Positions 18,025-20,693 of a DNA stretch of 45,746 nucleotides are shown here, piece by piece; the first letter of the stretch is position 1, and every line of letters begins with the position of its first letter. The notes under the pieces were generated by a model. That model was not told the origin of the DNA, did not search any database, and saw nothing but the letters and a program-made list of their open reading frames with translations. The DNA comes from Akkermansiaceae bacterium (lineage in GTDB: Bacteria; Verrucomicrobiota; Verrucomicrobiia; Verrucomicrobiales; Akkermansiaceae). The translations under genes and the position numbers were made by a program. The DNA is taken from the NCBI GenBank assembly GCA_025354565.1, contig JANXMQ010000253.1, positions 1 to 45,746 of the forward strand. The letters are read 5' to 3'.

Positions 18025-18552
18025 ATGACACAAAGGCAATTCTACGACTGGCAAACACTTGGAGGCGCGAAAGACGTCTCCCGGCTCGTCGCAGCGTTAG
18101 AAGAGCGGGAAATTTCCTGGTGTATGATCGGTGGCCTCGCGGTGAATCATTGGGCACAAGAGCCTATGGCCACCGCTGATGTCGATCTCGTGATCGTGTC
18201 TGAAAAAATCGAAGAAGCGGCAGACACCCTGAAGAGTCTGGGATTTACCGAAAGCCGCTTTAAGTGGTCGATCAATTTCAAAGGTGAATCCAAAGTATCT
18301 ATTCAAATTAGCACTGAAGAAATATATCTGGATTTCCCGGAGCGTTCAATCGGGACCACCGTGCATGGAATCCTGATGCGGGTGGCTAGTTTAGAGGACA
18401 CTCTCAAAGGAAAAATCGCTGCTTACGTGGAACCTGCCCGTCGGCCCAGCAAGCGTCAGAAAGATCTCGCAGATATATCAAGGCTCCTTGAAGCCCATCC
18501 CGGCATCAAGGATCTGATCCCACAACCGATCTACGACAGACTCGAAAAATAA
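18025..18552 (+). CDS. nucleotidyltransferase-fold protein (AbiEii/MNT-like) inserted between sucC and sucD
   Basis: This 175-residue protein has the polymerase-beta nucleotidyltransferase core: CMIGGLAVNHW with G36-G37, followed by TADVDLVIV carrying D52 and D54, and a later acidic strand near EEIYLDFPE. The C-terminal part (MRVASLEDTLKGKIAAYVEPAR...KRQKDLADISRLLEAHP) is like the helical part of AbiEii-type and related stand-alone transferases, some of which are toxins that modify tRNA. No antitoxin or HEPN partner is adjacent. The start at 18025 (MTQRQFYDW) avoids an artificial extension into sucC. Its composition looks less G+C-rich than the flanking genes, suggesting acquisition. Function is not certain. 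Confidence 0.75.
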   Translation: MTQRQFYDWQTLGGAKDVSRLVAALEEREISWCMIGGLAVNHWAQEPMATADVDLVIVSEKIEEAADTLKSLGFTESRFKWSINFKGESKVSIQISTEEIYLDFPERSIGTTVHGILMRVASLEDTLKGKIAAYVEPARRPSKRQKDLADISRLLEAHPGIKDLIPQPIYDRLEK

Positions 18553-18576: not shown

Positions 18577-19473
18577 ATGGCCATCCTCATTGACGAAAAT
18601 ACCAAACTCCTTGTCCAAGGCATCACCGGCAGCTTCGGCGCGCGCCACGCTTCTCTATCACTCGCCTACGGCACTAAACTCGTCGCCGGCGTCACTCCGG
18701 GAAAAGGCGGGCAGAAGTTTGAAAATGTCGTGCCGATCTTTGATACTGTCAGTGAAGCAGTCAAAGAAACCGGAGCCACCGCATCCGCCATTTTCGTGCC
18801 ACCGCCATTCGCTGCCGATGCGATTCTCGAAGCCGCCGATGCAGGCGTGGAACTCATCGTCTGCATCACCGAAGGCATTCCCGTCATGGACATGATGCGT
18901 GTCAAGGAAGCGCTCCGTGGTTCCAAGTCCCGCCTTGTGGGTCCTAACTGCCCCGGACTGGTCACTCCGGGTCACGGTGAGAAATCGCACGGCGGTTGCC
19001 GCATCGGCATCGCACCGGGCTACATCCACAAGCGCGGCAACGTCGGCGTGGTTTCCCGTTCCGGCACACTCACTTACGAAGCGGTTTTCCAACTCACCCA
19101 GCTCGGCTATGGCCAGAGCACCTGCGTCGGCATCGGCGGCGATCCGATCAACGGCACGAATCACCTCGAAGTGTTAGAGATGTTCAACAACGACCCGGAA
19201 ACCGAGGCGATCATCATGATTGGTGAAATCGGCGGTAATGCGGAAGTCGATGCCGCACGCTGGGCGAAAGCCAATTGCAAGAAACCCATCGCTGGTTTCA
19301 TCGCCGGAGCCACCGCGCCTCCGGGCCGTCGGATGGGTCACGCCGGTGCCATCGTTGGCGGCGAGGAAGACACCGCTCAGGCGAAAAAGCGCATCCTCGC
19401 AGAGTGCGGCATCGCTGTCGCGGAGACTCCTTCCGATATGGCGAAGACGTTGTTGGAACGCTGGGGGAAGTGA
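18577..19473 (+). CDS. sucD: succinyl-CoA synthetase, alpha subunit
   Basis: This 298-residue subunit binds CoA and carries the phospho-histidine. It starts [21 protein letters not shown], then [32 protein letters not shown] and [36 protein letters not shown]. The active histidine is in [20 protein letters not shown]. It is 24 bp downstream of the inserted transferase gene. The DNA just upstream of the ATG shows no good Shine-Dalgarno, so its expression after the insertion may depend on read-through or a local promoter. Confidence 0.96.
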
Positions 19474-19493: not shown

Positions 19494-20693
19494 GTGACCC
19501 CGACCTCACCATCCCCGCCGGTTCTAACTCCTGATCTTGAGATCAAGGACGCCCAACTGATTTTTAACCGTGTTTGGAGGGGACTGGAAAAAGAACTCGG
19601 CCGTGAGAATTTGCATTTTCCCAAGGAATTAATTCTGTTAGGTGGCGCGCCGGGTTCGGGTAAGGGGACGAACACTGCCTTCATCTGCAAAGTCCGCGGC
19701 ATCACGGCGGCGCCCATCGTCATCAGTGAACTGCTGGACTCCCCGGATGCCCGGCAAATCAAGTCCAGAGGCGGCATGGTCGGCGATGAGGAAGTCCTGC
19801 GCCTGCTGCTTCGCGAGCTACTAAAACCGCAGTTCCGCGACAGCGTGGTGCTCGATGGTTTTCCGCGCACGAAGGTCCAGGTCGAGTGTCTAAAGCTGTT
19901 CTACGACCAGATGATTGTGCTGCGACGCGAGTTTTCAGGCACCGCGCAGGCCCATCACTTCCGGCAGCCTACCGTCCACATCATGGTGCTCTTCGTCGAT
20001 GAGACGGAAAGTATCGCCCGTCAGCTCAAGCGCGGGCAGGAGGCGCTGGCGAGAAATGCCGAGGTCCGCCAATATGGTGTCGGAGCTTTGGTCGAGGAGC
20101 GCAACACCGACTTTGATCCCGATCTCGCACGCAATCGCTACCGGACTTTTAAAGAGAAGACTTACGACGCCCTCGTTTCTCTGAAGGAAATTTTCCACTA
20201 TCATTTCATCAACGCCCAGGCACCGATCGAAATCGTCCAACAGAACATCATCAACGAACTCGCCTATCAGAGTTCTTTGGAGCTGGACCCGCGCACTTAT
20301 GATACTTTGCGTCACATCCCCTTGGCGGATGAGATCGTCCAGAGTGCGCGCCAGGAACTCGTCAACCGCCTCGATAGCTATCAGGTCGAGCACCCGGAGT
20401 TATTACAAACGGTGGTTGATTTTATCCAAGGGAAAATGATGCCCATCATCAAGCGTTACGCGGTGAGCGGACGGGCCATGATCAACACGGAGGACTGCCT
20501 CTTTTGCAATCCGACCGCCATCGCGATCCTGATCGACATTTTTTCCGAGCGGGGATTCCGTGCCAGCGTGGACATCCACGTTCAGGAAATTCCGGAGTGC
20601 TTCGATTTGGTAACCGGAAAAATCAAGACCCGTGACAAGCGCGTTTACCGGATCATGATTCTGTTCGAGGGATCGAAAATCCGCCGTGGTTGA
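19494..20693 (+). CDS. adenylate-kinase-like protein with a long unexplained C-terminal region
   Basis: This 399-residue protein starts at GTG 19494 (MTPTSPSPPVLTP...). Residues about 45-260 form a nucleoside-monophosphate-kinase fold: P-loop GGAPGSGKGT (50-59), GMVGDEEVLRLLLREL, VLDGFPRT (119-126), and a lid-like FVDETESIARQLKRGQE. The last roughly 130 residues (DTLRHIPLADEIVQSARQEL..., FIQGKMMPIIKRYA, MINTEDCLFCNPTAIAILID, RVYRIMILFEGSK) match no domain I recognise. Typical adenylate kinases are about 215 residues. The gene lies 20 bp after sucD, so it may be co-transcribed with succinyl-CoA synthetase. NMP kinase activity is likely; the extension may be regulatory or enzymatic. Confidence 0.7.
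   Translation: MTPTSPSPPVLTPDLEIKDAQLIFNRVWRGLEKELGRENLHFPKELILLGGAPGSGKGTNTAFICKVRGITAAPIVISELLDSPDARQIKSRGGMVGDEEVLRLLLRELLKPQFRDSVVLDGFPRTKVQVECLKLFYDQMIVLRREFSGTAQAHHFRQPTVHIMVLFVDETESIARQLKRGQEALARNAEVRQYGVGALVEERNTDFDPDLARNRYRTFKEKTYDALVSLKEIFHYHFINAQAPIEIVQQNIINELAYQSSLELDPRTYDTLRHIPLADEIVQSARQELVNRLDSYQVEHPELLQTVVDFIQGKMMPIIKRYAVSGRAMINTEDCLFCNPTAIAILIDIFSERGFRASVDIHVQEIPECFDLVTGKIKTRDKRVYRIMILFEGSKIRRG

Follow-up and report, generated by a model that had tools for sequence, protein, structure and literature searches.

A two-domain adenylate-kinase-like protein of Verrucomicrobiota and its distribution relative to canonical adenylate kinase

Adenylate kinase (Adk) is nearly universal and generally indispensable in bacteria, and to our knowledge its replacement by a differently built enzyme has rarely been noted. 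The stretch of DNA analysed here (the window, 45,746 nucleotides from an Akkermansiaceae bacterium) encodes a 399-residue protein in which adenylate kinase motifs are followed by a C-terminal part without assignment. This raises the questions of whether such a protein works as an adenylate kinase, whether it can stand in for the canonical enzyme and what its C-terminal part contributes. No description of the family appears among the matches listed in the open PMC literature (titles and abstract openings, outside subscription papers and preprints), and the words 'adk' and 'adenylate' do not occur in the main text of the Verrucomicrobium spinosum essential genome study (PMC12283558).

Architecture of the protein and its C-terminal domain

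The reading frame is intact, with no internal stops, and is separated by 20 bp from the end of sucD at 19473, as the first-pass annotation stated. The P-loop and DGFPRT motifs (residues 51-59 and 121-126) recorded there are present, and the adenylate kinase type proposed from them is supported by the NMP-kinase fold, the P-loop and a Pfam ADK match. The features, from alignments and structural models, are as follows.

19494-20693, + strand: two-domain adenylate-kinase-like protein, 399 residues, GTG start (frame reading, family alignments)
19530-19598, + strand: N-terminal helix, residues 13-35, with conserved K18, D19, I23, F24 and W28 (alignment, model)
19614-20267, + strand: NMP-kinase fold, residues ~41-258 (Pfam ADK 51-139; model against PDB)
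19644-19670, + strand: P-loop GAPGSGKGT, residues 51-59; K57 (66/66) is Lys13 of E. coli Adk
19719-19739, + strand: altered AMP-binding helix IVISELL, residues 75-81, S78 and L81 invariant (profile alignment)
19854-19880, + strand: DGFPRTKVQ, residues 121-129; D121, R125 (Arg88) and Q129 (Gln92) invariant (alignment)
20019-20138, + strand: LID region, residues 176-215; R176, R180, R203, D206 and R215 invariant (alignment)
20265-20288, + strand: linker YQSSLELD, residues 258-265; Y258, Q259, L262, E263 and L264 invariant (alignment, model)
20289-20690, + strand: C-terminal domain, residues 266-399, two long helices followed by beta-alpha-beta-beta (model, alignment)

The C-terminal part had been described as 130 residues that could not be assigned. 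It is indeed a real domain without an assignment, but since the kinase fold extends to about residue 258, its length is about 140 residues. That it is coding is confirmed by 26 relatives at 50-86% identity that align across it, and a wider set of 65 relatives (45-82% identity) does the same. Conservation reaches the C-terminal end, R397 being kept in 65 of 66 homologues. As relatives align end to end and are conserved to the last residues, this part is not a chance reading frame. The family alignment comprises 66 full-length homologues, 45-82% identical to the window protein, and holds 46 invariant columns spread across both halves; the two-domain family is conserved.

The full-length model has a pLDDT of 85.3 and a pTM of 0.64, the low pTM meaning that the relative placing of the kinase half and the C-terminal domain is not fixed. 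The linker is partly of low confidence in the model despite its invariant residues. Modelled alone, the C-terminal domain is confident (pLDDT 91.5, pTM 0.76) and consists of two long helices followed by a strand, a helix and a long two-stranded hairpin. Its residues R286, L289, R292, G326, D348, R353 and G354 are invariant, and Q287 and D360 are found in 65/66 homologues.

Profile searches restricted to this part gave no significant assignment in any sequence library used. Pfam returned scattered weak matches for the C-terminal domains of the 66 members (among the best 25 of 26 families the best-shared, DUF7557, matched 9/66, with a best E of 0.006). NCBIfam had no match to the window member and only scattered weak matches to other members, PHROGs nothing under 0.05, PADLOC nothing and PDB sequences a best E of 0.92. 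Nor did residues 260-399 clearly match a known adenylate kinase subfamily extension in NCBIfam, Pfam or PDB sequences. The long adenylate kinase model PRK13808 (NF010381, 335 profile positions) is likewise longer than the usual one, but its positions 3-98 match residues 46-135 only and nothing in the C-terminal domain. The domain is thus without a sequence-level relative in the libraries used.

The kinase half and its AMP site

The kinase half combines a conserved catalytic layout with an altered acceptor site. Residues K57, D121, G122, P124, R125, Q129, R176, R180, R203, D206 and R215 are invariant in 66/66 homologues. Profile alignment, which reaches residue 224 of the window protein, identifies R125, R176, R180, R203, R215 and Q129 as the counterparts of Arg88, Arg119, Arg123, Arg156, Arg167 and Gln92 of E. 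coli Adk. According to the excerpted text of PMC3369945, Arg88 and Gln92 bind AMP, Gln92 helping to tell AMP from GMP, and Arg123, Arg156 and Arg167 hold the phosphates of ATP; Lys13 is the invariant lysine (PMC3369945 and PMC4325324, both in excerpt).

Alignment with 15 canonical verrucomicrobial adenylate kinases by hhalign (probability 98, E 2e-14) pairs the canonical ISTGDILR with IVISELLD. Counterparts of Thr31 and Arg36 in the E. coli STGxxLR helix are missing from this profile alignment; at position 82, aligned to Arg36, Arg occurs in 1/66 and Lys in 12/66 homologues. AMP binding must therefore differ from that of the canonical enzyme. With the catalytic residues kept and Thr31 and Arg36 lost, the layout for phosphoryl transfer appears retained and the AMP pocket partly rebuilt.

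Relative to canonical bacterial Adk (TIGR01351, PF00406), the protein shares the NMP-kinase fold, the P-loop, DGFPR and the counterparts of Gln92, Lys13 and Arg88/119/123/156/167. It differs in its altered and shortened AMP-binding helix lacking Arg36 and in two additions, the C-terminal domain of ~140 residues and an N-terminal helix that precedes the P-loop strand and is present also in short forms of the kinase lacking that domain. The PF00406 match, over the cut-off at E 7e-9, covers residues 51-139 only. None of the NCBIfam adk models passes its cut-off (best 48.1 bits against 187) or extends past residue 256, and the PDB sequence matches (best 60 of 98) lie in the kinase half. Strictly, the protein belongs to the NMP-kinase superfamily, and the lost Arg36 and the failed curated adk cut-offs set it apart from adenylate kinases proper; in its working it would resemble adenylate kinase.

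The full model matches NMP kinases in the PDB across residues 41-261. The top structural neighbour is human UMP/CMP kinase (1tev; Z 17.2, rmsd 2.4, 179 residues aligned, model range 44-259). The UMP/CMP kinases, which include the Dictyostelium enzyme 1uke (Z ~17), are tied with the adenylate kinases (Z ~16-17). UMP/CMP kinases have Asn at the base-reading position, whereas the two-domain family has Gln in 66/66, and a separate cytidylate kinase gene is present.

Distribution and history

The first-pass annotation did not mention that this gene is the sole ADK-family gene in its own genome and in many of its relatives. As to DISPLACEMENT of canonical ADK, PF00406 finds one place in the window's genome, the 399-residue gene; against a sole-kinase reading, the assembly is a draft at 95.4% completeness, whose missing part could hold a canonical adk.

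We searched 387 genomes of the phylum with the family profile and with PF00406, giving 79 carriers of the kinase and 308 non-carriers. A clean gap separates strong from weak PF00406 matches. Of the 79 carriers, 53 lack a strong match (best E 8e-13 or weaker) and 26 have one (E 3e-20 or better), whereas 300 of the 308 non-carriers have a strong match (E 2e-21 or better), seven of the remaining eight having none and one a match at E 5e-5. Fisher's test on this contrast gives p 1e-36, a value that ignores the shared ancestry of the genomes. The 53 carriers span 10 taxonomic families (f1, f7, f9, f13, f14, f15, f16, f17, f24 and f37); 41 of them have a single PF00406 match and 12 a second, weak one, with some first-look candidates left unscored in 9 of the 53. 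The two-domain kinase and canonical Adk are thus complementary in distribution.

Full PF00406 scoring was applied to 25 chosen genomes. In nine (G000, G076, G179, G276, G185, G229, G165, G159, G182) the lone match lies inside the two-domain gene, and three of these (G076, G179, G276) are single-contig genomes. In three more (G232, G206, G355) the lone match is a short form of the kinase. The window's genus is mixed: five of its 21 carriers (G000, G019, G023, G029, G035) depend on the two-domain kinase alone, and in the other 16 it is accompanied by a strong canonical or short ADK, which 16/16 non-carriers also have. This and the 26 of 79 carriers with another ADK gene mean that the two-domain kinase is not always the sole enzyme. 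The window's bacterium and many of its relatives appear to have no adenylate kinase other than this one, whose gene seems to displace the canonical one.

Two side observations concern other ADK genes. One genome of the same genus, with canonical ADK genes, holds broken remnants of the two-domain kinase gene (G013:C15:28768-28965). Tandem strong PF00406 matches within single frames (G068:C22:169188-170480, G334:C68:19405-20706, G048:C201:5857-6912, G026:C259:32661-33716) are apparently double-domain adenylate kinases.

Among the 12 carriers with a second weak PF00406 match, nine were fully scored and eight read. All eight, Opitutaceae-like (L238, L239, L240, L241, L243, L245, L246, L248), hold an Adk relic, a conserved frame of 154-185 residues that lacks the P-loop and the Asp and Arg of DGFPR and keeps an EHVS..LIRQEISRRTPLG-like stretch similar to the helix that binds AMP in canonical Adk. 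In Candidatus Synoicihabitans a PF00406 match covers the same range of the profile. Displacement would leave relics of this sort, though they might have a function of their own.

The C-terminal domain profile (threshold E 0.01, with no more than 10 first-look candidates scored in each genome) matched 76 of the 387 genomes, once per genome and in every case at the 3' end of the kinase gene. They include all 79 carriers except G206, G232 and G355, whose kinase genes end just after the last kinase helix. Two more such short forms come from named Puniceicoccales bins (L086, L087); the short forms at L192, L193, L194, L086 and L087 belong to small-genome Puniceicoccales-like bacteria and stop at the last kinase helix. 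The first-pass annotation suggested that the extension may sense a metabolite or carry a second activity. A small-genome lineage that keeps the kinase half without the domain points more to an accessory role than to an indispensable second activity.

In a quick kinase-domain tree the family, short forms included, stands apart from canonical Adk with full support, on a long branch from verrucomicrobial Adk and with long branches flagged. The short forms branch close to the base, next to full-length members of their own taxonomic family, a placement that involves long flagged branches and a long outgroup branch. Three copies from the window's genus (G018, G019, G026) group with Opitutaceae-like copies (99% support) and not with the window's own, which suggests transfer. 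MAGs labelled Planctomycetota also carry the two-domain kinase; among eight tested, it is the only PF00406 match in G442 and G444, and the other six have another. Viral contigs were considered as a further source of copies, but their 28 loci match residues 45-257 only, at 24-36% identity, and were read as phage kinases.

The gene's position after sucD had been taken as a functional link. This is not supported: of 116 loci examined (113 with at least 700 nt upstream, some genomes contributing two loci), the window's own is the only one where sucD adjoins the gene, and coupling to sucD was rejected as a family trait. An LpxK-like gene lies upstream in 13 of 55 loci (12 on the same strand, one on the opposite), and 10 of the 55 have an aminopeptidase-like gene downstream, both named from motifs; this neighbourhood recurs in one part of the family and is absent in other loci. 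The listing of neighbour clusters includes antisense shadow frames, and counts were taken for baits only. In the window, a 175-residue AbiEii/DUF2204-type nucleotidyltransferase gene (18025-18552, + strand) lies between sucC and sucD and splits this usual pair.

Proposed function and alternatives

We propose that the protein is probably a diverged adenylate kinase (ATP + AMP -> 2 ADP) able to replace the canonical enzyme, as it would have done in the window's genome. The evidence for replacement can be summarised as (i) the lone PF00406 matches, from whose sole-copy genomes we infer AMP kinase activity, and the contrast between carriers and non-carriers; (ii) the invariant catalytic residues; (iii) the relics in 8/8 genomes; (iv) two genomes, G232 and G355, that lack PPK2. 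By the layout of sequence and model, the N-terminal ~258 residues would bind ATP through the P-loop and the LID arginines, with AMP probably held against Arg125 and Gln129. The kinase half would be predicted to close, and presumably to catalyse, as adenylate kinase does.

The kinase half might instead phosphorylate another acceptor (another NMP, a modified nucleotide or a non-nucleotide), AMP being handled by PPK2 or an undetected kinase where canonical Adk is lacking. Some PPK2 classes phosphorylate AMP, and PPK2, present in 13 of the 15 genomes tested, might provide a route from AMP to ADP; this counts against replacement of Adk. The replaced Arg36 and Thr31 positions, the tie between UMP/CMP and adenylate kinases as structural matches and the second ADK in 26/79 carriers also favour another acceptor. 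We nevertheless regard this as unlikely. The two genomes in which PPK2 was not found, G232 and G355, have no other PF00406 gene either, only the short form of the kinase. Cytidylate kinase is present in 14/14 genomes tested and guanylate kinase in 12/12, leaving AMP kinase as the gap to fill. For PF13207 the best match is the two-domain gene in nine of ten genomes that lack canonical Adk; in the tenth, G165, a 310-residue frame matches more strongly. Finally, Gln129, equivalent to the adenine-reading Gln92 (PMC3369945, in excerpt), is invariant in 66/66.

For the C-terminal domain we infer an accessory, probably regulatory role, as a domain tied to this one kinase. The invariant linker and invariant charged residues suggest contact with the kinase or a small ligand, by which it may tune activity or location. 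A nucleic-acid-binding module of R3H or Alba type, bringing the kinase to RNA or DNA, is improbable. The fold search did yield a weak resemblance of this kind: the domain resembles these folds in its beta-alpha-beta-beta order and preceding helix, and its best neighbours are R3H 1whr (Z 6.2, rmsd 3.6, 91 residues aligned, 9% identity), R3H 1ug8 (Z 4.8) and numerous Alba-like chains (Z about 4 to 4.8). Foldseek matches include Alba (2h9u at E 0.013), SpoVS and Rpp20/25, and residues 354-399, the beta3-beta4 stretch, are basic (mean pI 9.9). However, all these Z values fall below the trust level of 8 and, per the tool, may reflect only a common arrangement (equally, absence of a fold from the VIA list is not evidence of difference). 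Foldseek gives no PDB match under E 0.001, there is no sequence-family match, and the domain as a whole is slightly acidic (mean net charge -1.6). The R3H signature is a conserved Arg-x3-His; across the 66 homologues no conserved His follows a conserved Arg by four residues, the only conserved His being 284 (57/66) and 322 (61/66). Below E 0.001, BFVD returned two viral proteins, neither of them characterised and both with a TM-score of at most 0.57, which were not counted as relatives. A domain that drives only oligomerisation or stability, ligand-free, is rather doubtful. It would accord with the helix-rich linker, with attachment to the kinase in every genome searched and with absence from a small-genome lineage, but the residues fixed in 66/66 (E263, R286, R292, D348, R353) or 65/66 (Q287, D360) are judged too many for a simple dimer face.

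Beyond an accessory domain on a diverged adenylate kinase, a wider reading is possible but tentative: a non-canonical adenylate kinase, its AMP site reworked and its C-terminal control domain new to description, would have taken the place of Adk in many Verrucomicrobiota lineages, in part through horizontal transfer, with a catalytically dead relic left in some, and the domain would sense a nucleotide or nucleic acid, putting the energy-charge enzyme under a control not known elsewhere.

If the two-domain protein is indeed the adenylate kinase of these bacteria, pipelines that seek canonical Adk will call carrier genomes Adk-negative. What Arg36 does in AMP binding could then be studied in a naturally occurring enzyme that functions without this residue, and the one lineage naturally devoid of the C-terminal domain would offer a ready comparison for its function.
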